Virus record (IMG/VR): IMGVR_UViG_3300010885_026776
Coordinates: 1 to 38,223 of that record
DNA from: a virus
Direction: 5' to 3' (one strand)
DNA length: 38,223 bases
Position 1 is the stretch's first letter, and every line of letters begins with the position of its first letter. The notes under the pieces are model-generated. The model did not search any database, was not told the DNA's origin, and saw only the letters and a list, made by a program, of their open reading frames with translations. Of this stretch, positions 10,691-15,816 are shown piece by piece. The position numbers were made by a program, and so were the translations under genes.

Positions 10691-11908
10691 TCACCCTTCC
10701 CCTCCCGGTGATGCTGCCGGACCTGGGAAGAGGAACATTTCCACCCCCTGTTGTTTGAGAGTAAGGTAACCGGAGCGAACTGCTCCGGTTATTACTGCTT
10801 CGAAATCCTGCATTTTTGGGAAATGCTGGTGGACGAAACGATAGGCTTCGGCATAGGGGCAGCTTCCACGTTTGGTGATGTACCAGATAAGTCGTTCGGC
10901 GTAGATTGCGTCCTCGGACTTTCCGATCTTGGAGAACACGAACTGCATGTCGGGTTCGAGGTCGGTAACCATCTGGTTAGCGAGAGCAAGGTGCTCAGCA
11001 GTGATGGACAGTTGATCGGACTCAGCCGCGGCTAGGACCATAGCGAGCTTGTGGATATGGGTTTGTTTCCGGGCGAGATAGCCGCCGAAGCGCTCGTCGT
11101 CGAGGTTGAGATGCTTGCCGGCATAGTGAGCTTCATACCAGGATTGCCCCCATTGGATGGCTTTGCGGGTTAGGACGTATTGCCCAGCCATGAGGGAGAT
11201 TTGAGCCAAGTCGTCGATCAGGTTCTGCGCGAGTTGCTTGAGATTGGCGGGGACCAGTTCGGAAGGGTAGGCGACGAGTTTGGCTTTTTTGTCTGCGTAG
11301 ACGAAGATGCAGCGAGAGGTGAAGCCTCCGCCGATCATGTATTCAGGGAAGTTGCCGGCGATCCAAGCTGGAGTCGTACAAGCGATGAGGTTGATCCAGG
11401 GATTTTCCACTGTGTCACAGCCGGAGCCTTTAGTACGCTTTTCAAAAGCGCCAGGTTTCCCATCCCACAGACTGACTAAGAGATCAACCATCTCCTTGTC
11501 CTGAGGGTTAAGCAGATTTCCAAATTCGGACGATTCGATCGTGAGGGCTGACATTGCATGGAACTCTCCTTGGTGTTCGAAGGTCATGGTGGATTCGGCA
11601 AAGCCGGTGACGAGAGCTTGCCAGGTCACAACGTCTGGGCCGAACTTTATGTCAGGAACTCGCTTGAGAAGCGACATACCAATCCCGGCGGTGGTGGACT
11701 TGGAAACGATGCCTGGCGGAGCGACAAGGATGATGTAGAAATTTGGATGCCACTGGAAGTAGGCCATGTCGATCCAAACTTTGCGACGTAAGGCTCCCGC
11801 AAGAGTAGAAACCGCTGTCCAAAAGTGCATATGCCGAGGCGCTTCGGAGAAGGAAGCATACTCCATGAAAGCGGAGATCCAATTGTCGAAGTGTCTTTTC
11901 TGCCCCAT
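10691..11908 (-). CDS. DUF3987-like helicase/primase ATPase
   Basis: The product is 405 aa from the ATG at 11908, which forms a TGATG overlap with the polymerase C-terminal gene; a TTG 18 bases upstream is less likely. The first 100 residues hold FWTAVSTLAGALRRKVW and then a degenerate P-loop (APPGIVSKSTT) in which Ser replaces the usual Gly before Lys. A later segment (INLIACTTPAWIAGNFPEYM, then the Gly-rich GGGFTSRCIF) is characteristic of the phage DUF3987-type replicative ATPases. The C-terminal 70 residues look like a winged-helix domain. It is the last gene of the leftward replication operon. Helicase or helicase-loader activity is inferred from family and position. Confidence 0.65.
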   Translation of the reverse strand: MGQKRHFDNWISAFMEYASFSEAPRHMHFWTAVSTLAGALRRKVWIDMAYFQWHPNFYIILVAPPGIVSKSTTAGIGMSLLKRVPDIKFGPDVVTWQALVTGFAESTMTFEHQGEFHAMSALTIESSEFGNLLNPQDKEMVDLLVSLWDGKPGAFEKRTKGSGCDTVENPWINLIACTTPAWIAGNFPEYMIGGGFTSRCIFVYADKKAKLVAYPSELVPANLKQLAQNLIDDLAQISLMAGQYVLTRKAIQWGQSWYEAHYAGKHLNLDDERFGGYLARKQTHIHKLAMVLAAAESDQLSITAEHLALANQMVTDLEPDMQFVFSKIGKSEDAIYAERLIWYITKRGSCPYAEAYRFVHQHFPKMQDFEAVITGAVRSGYLTLKQQGVEMFLFPGPAASPGGEG

Positions 11909-12633
11909 CACCCGCACGCCCCCCAAGACTCTTCACTCATCACCAGCCCGACCGGAATAATCAAAGGCTCTTCGTAAGGTAACGGAACAGAACAGTGGTC
12001 AATAATCTTTCTGCTACACTCGTCTCGAAGGTGTGTTGGGAACTGTCCTGCCAAGGAGTCGTGAACTTGAAGGAGAACTTGAATTTGATCTTCGTTGGCA
12101 TAGATATTTCGATACCCTCGATTGATGAGGCAAGCAACGGTAGACTGAGGGATTGCAGCAACAGCTTGATTGAAGATGGTTCCCTCAATACGATCGAAGA
12201 ACCAGATCCGGTAGCCGAAGACATTCTCGACAAAGCGATTAGACCTGAGGCGATGGCATAGATCGTCTTGCCAAGTTTTGATTTCGGGGAACTTGCCGTA
12301 GTACCAAGTTTGGATGCGTTCGACTTCAGAGGCGAGTAGTCCGATCCGTCCAGCAAGTCCAGAAGCTGTGCCAAGGTAGTTGGTACCGTGACAGAGGGCT
12401 TTGAAGAGCTTATAGGAGGGGTGGTGCTTGTCGATGGAAGGGTCACGGTAGTATTCCTTTGCGACTTCGACGTAGGGCTTGAGGCCGGCGGCGAACATGG
12501 CCTTCATTTCGAGACAATTGGACTCCCAGACAACAATGCGGAGGTCAGCAGAGTCGAGGTCGATATCGAAGAAGGTCATGCCTGGGTCAGGGATGAAGAG
12601 ACGGCGGATATTTGGGAGGGCTTGGTGTTGCAT
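11908..12633 (-). CDS. DNA polymerase family A, C-terminal (palm/fingers) half
   Basis: The product is 241 aa from the ATG at 12633, which overlaps the stop of the zinc-ribbon gene as TAATG. It carries motif A (FFDIDLDSADL, Asp at about residue 23), motif B (KLFKALCHGTNYLGT, about residues 75-89) and motif C (LQVHDSL, His191-Asp192), so the metal ligands needed for nucleotide addition are present. It lacks the exonuclease and thumb, which are encoded separately at 12809-14485. The first residues (QALPNIRRLFIPDPG) are exactly what follows the NLQN block in an undivided phage polymerase. The two halves presumably associate to form the replicative enzyme. The reading frame differs from that of the first half, so a simple stop-codon change is not the cause. 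Confidence 0.9.
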   Translation of the reverse strand: MQHQALPNIRRLFIPDPGMTFFDIDLDSADLRIVVWESNCLEMKAMFAAGLKPYVEVAKEYYRDPSIDKHHPSYKLFKALCHGTNYLGTASGLAGRIGLLASEVERIQTWYYGKFPEIKTWQDDLCHRLRSNRFVENVFGYRIWFFDRIEGTIFNQAVAAIPQSTVACLINRGYRNIYANEDQIQVLLQVHDSLAGQFPTHLRDECSRKIIDHCSVPLPYEEPLIIPVGLVMSEESWGACG

Positions 12634-12809
12634 TAGCGGCACTCCGGGCAAAGATGATACCACTCTCCGTCGATTTCTTTTTTGACTTTCCAGTTCTCTT
12701 CCCGCAGAGAAGCTCTAGCTTGGTCGAAATTAGTCTCACCTGTGTCTAGAACTTCATCGCAAGAGTCACATTCGAAGCTAATTTTTCCGCGGTTTTTGTG
12801 AATAGTCAT
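12633..12809 (-). CDS. 58-aa zinc-ribbon protein between the polymerase halves
   Basis: The frame begins at the ATG at 12809 in a TAATG overlap with the polymerase N-terminal gene and ends in a TAATG overlap with the C-terminal gene. The protein has C14-x2-C17 near the start (ECDSC) and C54-x2-C57 at the very end (HLCPEC), with a helical NFDQARASLREENW middle, the layout of a small zinc ribbon. Similar short zinc proteins are common in phages. There is no homing-endonuclease motif. Its seat exactly between two parts of one enzyme suggests either an insertion that split the gene or a bridging subunit; the sequence does not tell which. Confidence 0.8.
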   Translation of the reverse strand: MTIHKNRGKISFECDSCDEVLDTGETNFDQARASLREENWKVKKEIDGEWYHLCPECR

Positions 12810-14485
12810 TAGTCATCCCCCTTTGGCACGTTCTGCAGGTTCATACCAGATCCGAAAGCGTTTTCGCTAGATGAAAAGCGATAAGTTTCCGTTCCGGTAA
12901 TGTTAAACGAACAACGCATCCTTTCGTCAAGATCCACAGGAGCTTCCAAAAAGGTAGCACGGAAGACGTAGAGACTTCGAAGCTCTCGAATAGTGTCACA
13001 GAGGGGTTTGAGCAGAGGTTCTCTAGTAGAGATGACTTCGAGAGCACTATCGTCAGTTGTGACTGCTGCACCTTTCTTACTCCGTTTTTTAACCTCCTTT
13101 TGGGCAAAGACTCTATAGAACAAGTCCTGCATTTGTTTCGGAGATTTTATGTTGAGAGGCTGGCCGAGGAGGTCTTTGATCCAGGCATTTCGTTCGTCGA
13201 TGGCAGTTTGGAGTTCCGCGGACAAGGCGGCTTTCGCTTCGTTGTTGACGCGCAGGCCGTCGTTCATGGACTTCAAAACAGGCCAGAATAGTGACTGCTG
13301 GAAGTCATGGATTTCCCGGAGTTTCGGCCAGGAGGACAAGAGGGCATCGATCGCGGCTTGTTCAGACTCATCGACTTCGTAAGTGACTACGCAGTCTTTG
13401 CAGTTGTATATCCAGAGCTGCCGCTCCCCGAGTTTCGGGTCCCAATCCTTGGACTCGTCTTTCCAGTAGACATGGTAATCAGTGTAGAGGGAAGAGAGGA
13501 AATCGAGACCTTTCTGCATGGAAGAAAACATGCAATGCTGAGCGATCATGGTGTCGCGGTGGAAGTTAGGAATGAAAAGGAAATGACGGTGGAAATACTG
13601 CGCATCGTAAAGGAAGTTTTGCCCGATGACTTGGCAGTTCGGATGGGTTAGGAGTTTGTATAGCTGGTGAGTGAGGTAGACTTCTTCTTCCTCCCGCCAG
13701 TATTGGATGCGATCTTGCCAACCGGGGACTTCCTGTGGGCAGGCTCGGAGTTGGGGGATACAGATTGCTTCGAGTTTAGACCAAGCAAGGCCTACGCAAG
13801 CGATGTGTCCTCCGCGGGTTTCGATATCGACGGAAAGCTTGAGGGGACCATCGCTGACTCGTCGTAGAAGGTCAGACAAACGCTTCGCTGCTGTTGCGAA
13901 GGATGGCTCAATTTCAAAACTATATTCTGGCGGTCGAGGAGGGCTTTCCAATCGGGAAATTGACAAAGCTCTTCGAAGATCGTGGAGGACAATGTTCCGA
14001 TCTTTCCATACTCCGTAGATATAAGAAGGAGGGTAGGTCGGGATGACATGGCAAGTGTGTCCTTTCGGTGTTGTGTAATCGAGGATTGATCCGCGCCAGG
14101 ACTTTATCCCGATTTTTCCGAGCATGGCAAAGAGTGGGCCATTTCCCAAGACGAGAACAACTCGTGGTTTAACCAAGTCGATATCAGCGTTAAGCCGATC
14201 AAGACCAGTAACCACAACAGGCAGGACATAGCGATCATGAAGAGGAACATGATTGGGCGTGCGTTCGGCCTTGTTTCTGGCGACGAGGTTGTCGAAGTTT
14301 TGTCCATGAGTTGCCTCCCTGATTAGGGCTGTGACGAAGGTGGTGGAACGCTGGATGCCGGCTTCTTCCAGCATCCGGTCGAACTCTCGGTCGATAAGGA
14401 TCATGTTGTGCTGGAGGTCTCGGTAAGAGACAATATCGCTCACGATCATGAGCTTGGAGTTGGATGGTCCAGATGGTGTTATCAT
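12809..14485 (-). CDS. DNA polymerase N-terminal part: UDG-like domain, 3'-5' exonuclease, thumb
   Basis: The product is 558 aa. Residues 10-175 look like a uracil-DNA-glycosylase fold (REFDRMLEEAGI, then VVLVLGNGPLFAMLG and HVIPTYPPSYI), but the usual GEAPG active-site loop is replaced by a SDIVSYRD segment, so uracil excision is doubtful. Residues 215-370 hold the exonuclease motifs: D220-I-E222, N290 to D294, and Y360-x3-D364, all complete. Residues 400-545 are the thumb. The protein stops just after the TGTETYRFSS and NLQNVPKG motifs that precede motif A in family A enzymes. The start has GGGGGAG upstream. Catalysis must be supplied by the separate gene at 11908-12633. Confidence 0.9.
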   Translation of the reverse strand: MITPSGPSNSKLMIVSDIVSYRDLQHNMILIDREFDRMLEEAGIQRSTTFVTALIREATHGQNFDNLVARNKAERTPNHVPLHDRYVLPVVVTGLDRLNADIDLVKPRVVLVLGNGPLFAMLGKIGIKSWRGSILDYTTPKGHTCHVIPTYPPSYIYGVWKDRNIVLHDLRRALSISRLESPPRPPEYSFEIEPSFATAAKRLSDLLRRVSDGPLKLSVDIETRGGHIACVGLAWSKLEAICIPQLRACPQEVPGWQDRIQYWREEEEVYLTHQLYKLLTHPNCQVIGQNFLYDAQYFHRHFLFIPNFHRDTMIAQHCMFSSMQKGLDFLSSLYTDYHVYWKDESKDWDPKLGERQLWIYNCKDCVVTYEVDESEQAAIDALLSSWPKLREIHDFQQSLFWPVLKSMNDGLRVNNEAKAALSAELQTAIDERNAWIKDLLGQPLNIKSPKQMQDLFYRVFAQKEVKKRSKKGAAVTTDDSALEVISTREPLLKPLCDTIRELRSLYVFRATFLEAPVDLDERMRCSFNITGTETYRFSSSENAFGSGMNLQNVPKGDD

Positions 14486-14505: not shown

Positions 14506-15816
14506 TCAGACAAAGGCAGGTTCGTCATCGAGGGCGTTGAGGCGAAGGACACTAATCCCATAATATTCCGGGCTTAGTTCAAGTCCTGTTGCGTAGAGCT
14601 TACATTGGTGAGCCGCGGGGAAGATAGTCCCGGTCCCCGCGAAGGCGTCGAGGACAGTATCTCCGGGGCGAGTGGACCGCTTAAGGAGGTCCACGAATAA
14701 CTCAACAGGTTTATTAGCACCATGTCCAAGATTTTCCTCCAAGCGGCAAGGTATAACGTCGGAGTAGATACCAGTAACAGGGCGATGGCCTTTGATGGCA
14801 TAAAGGATAAGTTCATATTGGCGTCTCGGTCCATGTTCGGGAAGAGGGACTCGGCCGGAACCAAGCTTGTAGACGATGAGAGGGGTTCGGAAGACGTACC
14901 AGCCGGCGGCTTTCATCATGGACTTGAGTTCGTGGAACTTGTCGAAGTCGCAGAAGATGTAGGCATGGGCTTTTGGCTTGGCGACTCGATAAGAGGCCGG
15001 ACAGAACTTTTCCATCAGGATGCGCCAGGAAGCTGGGCTGTCGTCGTAGTGGTGTTCAGCATTTTCTAGCCGGCTTCCACCATCGCCAAAACTCTGCGCG
15101 TTCATCCCATACGGCGGGTCGGTGAGAACCACATCAAAAGTGTTATCGGGGCAGTTTGCCATCCAAACAAGGCAATCGGAATGATGAAGTTGGTGGACGG
15201 ATGAGTTATATGAAACACCGACAACTTCCGCCAGCCGCTCAGATTTGGCTTTTTCTTCTTGACGTTTAAGAGCTTTAAATGCATCTTTTTCATTCTTTGC
15301 CCCTGCAACAAGTGGGTTATCAAGGTGATCGGCAAGTAGGATGGCCTTGCGATCACCCGCATAGTCAGTTGTCTGGACTTCACGAAGCGTGTCCGCGATC
15401 GTGTGAGATTTCCCGATCGCCTCGGCTTGAGCAACACGTAGTCGATTGAGACGGGCAAGGGCTTCGCTGCGTTCCTGCCAAGATAAATCTTGCCGGCGGA
15501 GATTTTCATCGAGTTCGGCCTCTTCAGCTTCGAGCGGGGTGAGTTCGCCAAGGGTGAGGACAGGGACGGAATTGGCGGGGATTTCGAGGCCATTGCAACG
15601 TATGCCGTCACCGAGCATCCAGATTGTCTCTAATGCCCGCAATCGACGCTCACCGGCGACTAGGACGGTTCCTAGCGGGGTTTCCCGCACAACAATCGGG
15701 TGGAGAAGGCCAAGCGCGGAAATGGAGTTAACCAGATCAGTTAGAGCTTCTGGTTCGAAGATCTTCCGTTGGCGGTTGGGGGAGATGATAAGATCGGAAC
15801 GAGGGATAGTTTTCAC
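14506..15816 (-). CDS. ParB-domain / DNA methyltransferase fusion
   Basis: The product is 436 aa. Residues 1-115 are a ParB/Srx-like domain (LHPIVVRETP, then AGERRLRAL at 54-62). A charged linker leads to a methyltransferase domain from about residue 205: HHSDCLVWM, then the catalytic DPPYG at 233-237, and later the AdoMet-binding DAFAGTGT near residue 393. DPPY before FxGxG is the beta-class order, so the product should methylate adenine-N6 or cytosine-N4. The GTG start overlaps the MazG stop (GTGA) and has AAGGAGG 8 bases upstream. No restriction enzyme is nearby, so protection from host restriction or regulation are both possible. The ParB domain may guide it to a site. Confidence 0.88.
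   Translation of the reverse strand: MKTIPRSDLIISPNRQRKIFEPEALTDLVNSISALGLLHPIVVRETPLGTVLVAGERRLRALETIWMLGDGIRCNGLEIPANSVPVLTLGELTPLEAEEAELDENLRRQDLSWQERSEALARLNRLRVAQAEAIGKSHTIADTLREVQTTDYAGDRKAILLADHLDNPLVAGAKNEKDAFKALKRQEEKAKSERLAEVVGVSYNSSVHQLHHSDCLVWMANCPDNTFDVVLTDPPYGMNAQSFGDGGSRLENAEHHYDDSPASWRILMEKFCPASYRVAKPKAHAYIFCDFDKFHELKSMMKAAGWYVFRTPLIVYKLGSGRVPLPEHGPRRQYELILYAIKGHRPVTGIYSDVIPCRLEENLGHGANKPVELFVDLLKRSTRPGDTVLDAFAGTGTIFPAAHQCKLYATGLELSPEYYGISVLRLNALDDEPAFV

Follow-up and report, generated by a model that had tools for sequence, protein, structure and literature searches.

The window analysed here (38,223 nt; IMG/VR record IMGVR_UViG_3300010885_026776, positions 1 to 38,223) carries a family A DNA polymerase encoded in two pieces, with a small zinc-ribbon-like gene exactly between them, and a search for homologues revealed the identical seam to be broken in 56 of 194 related polymerases. 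We consider it likely that this is a working two-piece enzyme, whose recurrent seam was broken by an insertion of the homing-endonuclease type and in which the zinc gene is a late passenger. The putative replicative polymerase of a tailed phage would then consist of two polypeptides that assemble in trans into one working enzyme.

The split polymerase locus

Three minus-strand open reading frames (ORFs), in the order polymerase N-half, zinc ORF and C-half, were confirmed (Table 1), and the ORFs, their TAATG overlaps and the Pfam domains bear out an earlier sequence-only reading of this DNA, which had described a polymerase split in two by a zinc-ribbon gene. The N-half, with the C-terminus ...TGTETYRFSS...NLQNVPKGDD*, matches UDG PF03167 (7-163), DNA_pol_A_exo1 PF01612 (198-371) and positions 5-133 of the DNA_pol_A profile PF00476, and the C-half matches positions 138-354, so that this last profile is cleanly divided in two. 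The C-half starts with the ATG at 12633; the listed 251-aa ORF merely adds an upstream GTG. The DNA_pol_A and 3'-5' exonuclease domains, together with the catalytic residues of motifs A and C and Exo I-III, all present, place the enzyme in family A (Pol I-like), and in being encoded by two ORFs it departs from the usual single-polypeptide form, which is typical of this family and not strictly defining.

Table 1. Features of the polymerase locus and its neighbours in the window
Feature	Position	Strand	Remarks
Primase/helicase-like gene (DUF3987, phrog_14296)	10691..11926	-	downstream, overlaps C-half end, same operon
Polymerase C-half, 241 aa	11908..12633	-	motif A (DIDLDSAD), motif B (K-4-H-4-Y), motif C (VHDS)
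Zinc-gene stop TAA overlapping C-half ATG (TAATG)	12633..12635	-	
Nested zinc-ribbon-like gene, 58 aa, CxxC...CPxC	12633..12809	-	GC 44.6%, predicted structure
GGAG, Shine-Dalgarno-like	12642..12645	-	in zinc-gene CPEC codons, 8 nt before C-half ATG
Polymerase N-half, 558 aa	12809..14485	-	UDG-like domain, 3'-5' exonuclease, thumb, first palm part
N-half stop TAA, last base common to zinc-gene ATG (TAATG)	12809..12811	-	
AAAGGGGG, Shine-Dalgarno-like	12817..12824	-	from PKG codons, 7 nt before zinc ATG
ParB-N / N6_N4 DNA methyltransferase gene	14506..15816	-	upstream, same operon direction

A continuous frame across 12633-12809, named earlier as evidence against a split, was looked for, and no reading frame traverses the insert. 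The identical codon boundary is also broken in L001, L002, L003, L021, L025 and L102, all split in the same way and without the zinc gene, and in the isolate Vibrio phage VS-ABTNL-3; since the same break is found in independent contigs and in an isolate, assembly error, sequencing frameshift and chance were rejected. The closest relatives, L001 (75/83% identity) and L002 (67/84% identity), have no gene between the polymerase halves.

Translation would proceed from the N-half through the zinc ORF to the C-half by TAATG stop/start overlaps, with Shine-Dalgarno-like coding stretches just before the starts, and judging from these overlaps the three genes seem to be translationally coupled, in agreement with the tight coupling proposed before. 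A strong Shine-Dalgarno sequence as the cause of the seam was rejected, since such stretches are almost as common in unsplit relatives (content at the seam not clearly higher, P=0.07).

One seam across the polymerase clade

Among 194 distinct clade polymerases in a profile HMM survey, 135 are whole and 56 split. All 56 splits fall in one loop between NLQNxPKG and LPNIR (N-end at model 544-551), where a gene that is continuous in relatives is broken at one point with each half in frame; ten further breaks were found elsewhere in the polymerase, likewise between domains or ahead of motifs. The N-halves end about 5-10 residues after NLQN, the C-half of the window begins 5 residues before LPNIR, and in unsplit relatives the linker measures about 3 to 25 residues. 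Roughly 17 of the 56 seams are bare, and the remainder are occupied by one or more genes (HNH-AP2 homing endonucleases, MazG, class II-like ribonucleotide reductase (RNR), dUTPase, methyltransferase, HTH or unknown genes). A scan of genome contigs returned a continuous polymerase on a contig labelled Saccharibacteria (L328), one distant match and nothing else, and a DNA pattern search for the seam returned five contigs only, two of them new.

In the model of the unsplit L019 polymerase (mean pLDDT 90.5) the seam is a coil of pLDDT 71-75, and the fold of this unsplit relative resembles Bst, Taq and phage G20c Pol I (Z 32-35). The break lies within a short coil of variable length, between NLQNxPKG and the LPNIRxLF segment leading to motif A, so that each half retains whole structural elements.

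The halves might be rejoined through a split intein, an intron or a programmed frameshift, and there are precedents: split inteins with a nested HNH gene were published for phage DNA polymerase B (PMC6892783), and phage polymerases often contain group I introns (cited in PMC10580990). We nevertheless hold such rejoining to be extremely improbable here, because in bare splits the two halves are separated by almost nothing. The broken ends lie within about 10 residues of the conserved motifs, so close to NLQN and LPNIR that there is no room for intein halves. Group I and II introns were rejected because neither the window nor 17 split loci gave an Rfam match, the window insert is fully coding and many splits are gapless. 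A programmed frameshift to a fused product was rejected for the window, since a -1 shift meets a stop at once, and the frame of the C-half is closed upstream.

On a tree of 185 rows, about 16 changes between split and whole forms are needed (14-20 in bootstraps; mean of 45 when shuffled), counts in which gain and re-fusion are indistinguishable. That the six splits within the window's subclade form a single clade was rejected (p-AU 1e-4).

Splitting would be a usual first step of gene decay, and the polymerase could in principle be dead, its role taken over by a host or second enzyme. The evidence makes this scarcely credible: active-site residues are retained in all splits with data, pN/pS is 0.17-0.35 in both halves, which indicates strong purifying selection as in unsplit pairs, splits persist through a 13-member clade, and no second match to the C-half was found elsewhere in the window genome. 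The exonuclease and polymerase residues, intact in both halves as first noted, and the purifying selection are also consistent with the expectation that the enzyme probably functions in its split form.

Homing endonucleases at the seam

Recognisable homing endonucleases, all HNH-AP2 genes, were found within 7 of the 56 seams (L089, L107, L130, L142, L279, L285 and L098), an enrichment of about 25-fold per base, and the HNH-split L089 stands beside its unsplit sister L090 with full support. An insertion polymorphism is seen in the pair L098/L170, a seam with versus without the homing endonuclease: the flanks are identical, the LQNLPKGDG codons are synonymously recoded and the homing gene restores, with its own end, the AAAGGAGATGGTTAA junction. 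As the two versions are the ends of a single metagenomic contig, they might come from mixed strains. The endonuclease-free one is itself already split, and insertion-linked recoding of the target, a possible co-conversion, was seen in this one contig pair.

We propose that HNH-AP2 genes insert at the seam and supply a stop and a restart, which would be the usual first event, and that the endonuclease may afterwards disappear, so that a bare split remains, or the gap may be taken up by other genes; in the window, the small zinc-ribbon-like gene would have filled it recently. The seam of the window retains neither a homing endonuclease nor a remnant of one, so an origin of this kind is what we infer for its split.

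Many of these patterns would also arise if the frame simply broke in a mutation-tolerant loop and genes were inserted afterwards. The seam is a coil, the linker of unsplit relatives varies widely, bare splits are common, the PKG codons give a Shine-Dalgarno-like stretch in whole genes too and the breaks elsewhere also fall between domains or ahead of motifs, all of which would suit a split made by frame breakage and restart, with no homing endonuclease and a gap that gathered genes neutrally. This is possible but, in our judgement, doubtful, given the endonucleases precisely at the seam in seven lineages, the recoded target codons beside one of them and the contrast between L089 and L090. A broader reading is put forward tentatively: the loop might be a general docking seam, where homing endonucleases repeatedly break the gene in dozens of phage lineages, a two-subunit enzyme is tolerated and genes for replication and nucleotide supply (RNR, dUTPase, MazG, methyltransferase and zinc proteins) use the gap as a slot coupled in translation, so that their products are synthesised together with the polymerase.

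The zinc-ribbon-like gene

The GC content of the zinc gene is lower than the 50-51% against which it was compared, which suggests that it arrived recently. Its product, modelled with low confidence (pLDDT 72) as strand-strand-helix-strand-strand, contains CDSC...CPEC; it gave no Pfam match above cut-off, no endonuclease match in profile searches and nothing useful in a PDB sequence search. No homologue was found in 11 related records or in the related loci examined, and a scan of viral contigs with the zinc gene found no relative. Outside the relatives, homologues are stand-alone genes: in Caulobacter phages they lie several genes away from an unsplit polymerase, and in phage IMGVR 517045 a weak homologue (E=0.02) sits just downstream of a whole polymerase.

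The sequence-only reading had suggested that the zinc protein may bridge the halves; it would then be a third polymerase subunit that clamps or bridges them. Its exact nesting with coupled overlaps, the small CxxC proteins in further seams (L253, L284 and L326), the weak homologue adjoining a whole polymerase in IMGVR 517045 and the internal zinc-binding domain of HMO-2011-type polymerases (PMC9038755) are all compatible with such a role. We find it unlikely, since L001 and L002 carry the identical split with no intervening gene, in most seams the cargo is unrelated or absent, zinc homologues in other genomes lie close to unsplit polymerases and the GC content points to a recent arrival. Nor does the zinc gene regularly accompany the split, as among the genomes examined the window genome alone has it, and most likely it is a late passenger, synthesised in step with the polymerase, and not a required bridge.

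Implications

An essential replicative enzyme appears to have changed many times, at a single position, between being encoded by one gene and by two, and this recurrent switching provides natural replicates for how fission happens, whether it is reversible and what occupies the gap. The seam is also a ready-made site at which to break family A polymerases, one for which natural examples exist, and annotators should be warned that such split polymerases look truncated. A published survey of viral PolA reportedly retained only sequences with Phe, Leu or Tyr at position 762; the whole clade has His there, so that a filter of this kind would drop it entirely.

Comparison with known systems

The arrangement had been thought undescribed, and this has to be narrowed. 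In OM43 phages MEP401, MEP402 and relatives, two ORFs encode a family A polymerase and a small ORF of unknown function separates them; most group I genomes are split, and the authors suspected an intron (PMC10580990). The MEP401/402 break lies about 14 residues further on than the window seam, directly before motif A, the intervening ORF (77 aa) is unrelated to the zinc gene, and the MEP401 polymerase is only distantly related; the window C-half found no match in MEP401.

Split family B polymerases are described for T4-like phages: Aeromonas phages 25 and 44RR have gp43A/gp43B, just one of these two phages carrying a Seg homing endonuclease, and the phage 25 halves co-purify and are active (PMC2988022). 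These differ from the window clade in family, in their Seg-type element and in being known from few phages; neither recurrence across dozens of lineages nor cargo such as RNR, dUTPase, MazG or a zinc gene is reported for them. Aeh1 nrdA, split by the HNH homing endonuclease mobE ('genes-in-pieces'), gives a functional two-piece enzyme, and T4 mobE has the same UAAUGA-type overlap (PMC2988022); unlike the window, this is a ribonucleotide reductase and a single case. MIJ3 PolB resembles split relatives of the window in having polymerase genes split around an HNH gene, but has intein blocks on both sides (PMC6892783), where the window has none.

HMO-2011-type polymerases, like the window, tie a zinc-binding element to a phage family A polymerase, although theirs is a DnaJ-like domain encoded in frame, which lies between the exonuclease and polymerase parts of a single uninterrupted protein (PMC9038755); the partial DnaJ domain with CXXCXGXG repeats that marks this type is absent from both window halves. 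Vibrio phage vB_VspS_VS-ABTNL-3 (MF497422) has a family A polymerase broken at the identical codon boundary (NLQNLPKGDG*), with a TAATG overlap and a nested gene, which, unlike that of the window, encodes a 184-aa phrog_8380-like protein; its annotation is silent on the split. A two-piece phage enzyme is a known kind (T4-like gp43A/B, Aeh1 nrdA and OM43 phage MEP401), while the recurrence of the split and its cargo are new.

The split polymerase of the window

The window, a complete virus record of 38,223 bases, carries terminase, portal and major head genes on its plus strand and a replication operon (Sak4-like ATPase, MazG, ParB/methyltransferase, polymerase and DUF3987 primase) on its minus strand. 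Several relatives also have a gene annotated as methyltransferase or ParB-like ahead of the polymerase. The family A DNA polymerase had been described, in the sequence-only reading, as split into two ORFs (N-half and C-half) with a zinc-ribbon gene between them, and this was right: the ORFs were seen, as was TAATG at both junctions (N-half/zinc gene and zinc gene/C-half). A AAAGGGGG stretch 7 nt ahead of the zinc ATG and GGAG 8 nt ahead of the C-half ATG both lie within coding sequence. No open frame crosses the insert: the -1 frame meets a TGA immediately, and the frame of the C-half does not stay open upstream.

Features of the split polymerase in the window, and of the seam and other breaks in related loci (L-numbers)
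Feature	Location	Strand	Remarks
Polymerase N-half	14485-12809	minus	558 aa; UDG-like domain, 3'-5' exonuclease, DNA_pol_A profile positions 5-133
ORF nested between N-half and C-half			complete, 58 aa; CDSC and CPEC motifs
Polymerase C-half	12633-11908	minus	241 aa; DNA_pol_A profile positions 138-354
His82 codon of C-half	12388-12390		equivalent to Klenow Phe762 / Taq Phe667
ParB-N domain fused to N6/N4 DNA methyltransferase	14506-15816		directly upstream of polymerase
Seam: HNH-AP2 endonucleases	L089, L107, L130, L142, L279, L285, L098
Seam: MazG-type pyrophosphatases	L091, L114, L272
Seam: whole ribonucleotide reductase genes	L302:2295-4043; L318:2082-3803		class II-like by length and sequence; further genes beside them, in L318 including an SNase-like gene
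Seam: dUTPase	L321
Seam: methyltransferases	L255, L268
Seam: Lon-C-like protein	L290
Seam: regulators	L168, L143		L143 by sequence
Seam: phrog_8380-like protein	Vibrio phage VS-ABTNL-3		184 aa; isolate
Third break	L005:1413-1684; L272:2500-3149		between UDG-like and exonuclease domains

Distribution of the break

Viral contigs were scanned with four related profiles, and an HMM of 790 positions was made from the continuous (single-ORF) members. The 194 distinct polymerases comprise 135 continuous and 56 split ones, with 3 not judgeable. The N-half ends at model position 544-551 in all 56 splits, and the match is taken up again by the C-half at LPNIR (in L322 the C-half match is partial), defining a seam between the NLQNxPKG and LPNIR segments; only ten breaks lie away from it. 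The seam holds anything from no DNA to about 2.9 kb; about 17 of the 56 seams are bare and the rest hold one to five genes, many of which are unknowns.

A second recurrent break lies just upstream of the Exo III motif, at model positions 341-350 (L080, L093, L304, L306, L314 and L013, the last being Caulobacter phage Kuura), the pieces lying 0 to about 660 nt apart. At the third break, a short ORF of L005 reads CNNKLCVNTDHLYLGTHQQN, like an HNH remnant.

On a 185-row tree made without the seam columns, the split/whole state requires at least 16 changes (14-20 in 24 bootstrap replicates; mean of 45 with shuffled labels), and 6 changes are needed on a careful 33-row tree. A tree that unites the six splits within the window's own subclade in a single clade is rejected (p-AU 1e-4); one that unites only the window, L001, L002 and L021 is not (p 0.22). 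We claim recurrence of the split/whole change and not an exact number of gains, since change counts cannot separate new fissions from re-fusions.

Integrity of the two-piece enzyme

All splits with data at the column keep the catalytic residues of the exonuclease motifs (Exo I, Exo II, Exo III) and of polymerase motifs A and C, the RFSS-motif arginine and the lysine of motif B, just as the continuous polymerases do. Both halves have pN/pS values of 0.17-0.35, similar in magnitude to those of unsplit pairs. In continuous relatives the seam is a variable-length linker. An AlphaFold2 model of the unsplit L019 (mean pLDDT 90.5), which matches the Bst, Taq and phage G20c polymerases at Z 32-35, shows the seam mainly as coil (pLDDT 71-75). 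Judged by its sequence, the split enzyme looks alive, a functional-looking gene-in-pieces, and from conservation, the model and precedent we infer that the two chains assemble; the split enzyme probably works, as the sequence-only reading expected.

All 189 aligned members, split or whole, have His at the position of Klenow Phe762 / Taq Phe667.

The zinc gene

The closest relatives, L001 (75% and 83% identity to the window in the two halves) and L002 (67% and 84%), are split without a zinc gene, the N-half terminating in NLQN(I/V)PKGDD and the C-half starting at an overlapping ATG. L003 (54% and 62%), terminating in NLQTIPKGDED, is split in the same manner, and bare splits also occur in L021, L025 and L102. 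No zinc homologue was found in the 11 related records or related loci searched. Where homologues do occur, they stand alone: in Caulobacter phages such as Jess A (E 4e-7) the gene lies several genes downstream of a polymerase that is not split, and in phage IMGVR 517045 a weak match (E 0.02) directly follows a whole polymerase. The GC content of the zinc gene is 44.6%, versus 50-51% in the polymerase halves, and falls within the lowest 2.4% of the operon's 177-base windows. Given the bare splits, the stand-alone homologues and the low GC, the zinc gene probably arrived late, and such polymerases cannot in general depend on it to be held together; the proposal that its product bridges the halves is unlikely.

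Origin of the break

HNH-AP2 homing endonuclease genes occur at 6 of the surveyed seams (28 kb in total), and the other 1.92 Mb has 16 places with such genes (P about 6e-7). This enrichment is to be read knowing that whatever fills a seam has, by definition, been inserted, and that about ten of the 16 other places sit just downstream of the polymerase gene. The latter arrangement is seen in L232, L054, L025, L289, L093, L019 (unsplit, a close relative of the window), L127, L033, L263 and L131.

A seventh seam case and the most telling one, L098/L170, comprises the two ends of contig IMGVR_UViG_3300036546_000107, which have identical flanks, one version having a 138-aa HNH-AP2 gene. The LQNLPKGDG codons directly ahead of this gene are synonymously recoded and its own 3' end recreates the AAAGGAGATGGTTAAAATG junction, which is how a homing insertion immunising its target should look; both versions are already split. 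The contig ends overlap but differ by the endonuclease gene; versions from two strains seem to have been joined during assembly, and this may account for the pair. L089, with HNH at the seam, adjoins the unsplit L090 on the tree with full support and is a recent case.

On the enrichment and these two pairs, we favour a history of endonuclease insertion at the seam, followed by loss or replacement, over plain breakage in a tolerant loop, to which we give a distinctly smaller chance.

Comparison with known systems

In the open-licence literature searched, no account was found of recurrent fission at this exact seam, nor of a polymerase gene that harbours ribonucleotide reductase, dUTPase, MazG or zinc cargo. 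One likely reason is that a published viral PolA survey (PMC9069017) retained only sequences with Phe, Leu or Tyr at position 762, where all 189 aligned members here have His. Split inteins are known in phage PolB (PMC6892783); no intein segments fit at this seam. T4-like Aeromonas phages have a two-piece replicative polymerase, gp43A/B, with and without a nested homing endonuclease, and in phage 25 the two halves purify together and are active; Aeh1 nrdA, split by mobE, keeps its function (PMC2988022). The sequence-only reading knew of no described split family A polymerase with a gene nested at this point, which is only partly right: a split one is published for the OM43 phages MEP401/402, with a small ORF of unknown function between the halves and an intron suspected (PMC10580990). 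Their break, however, lies about 14 residues later, directly ahead of motif A. The interesting part is the wider pattern, the recurrent split/whole change at the seam described here.
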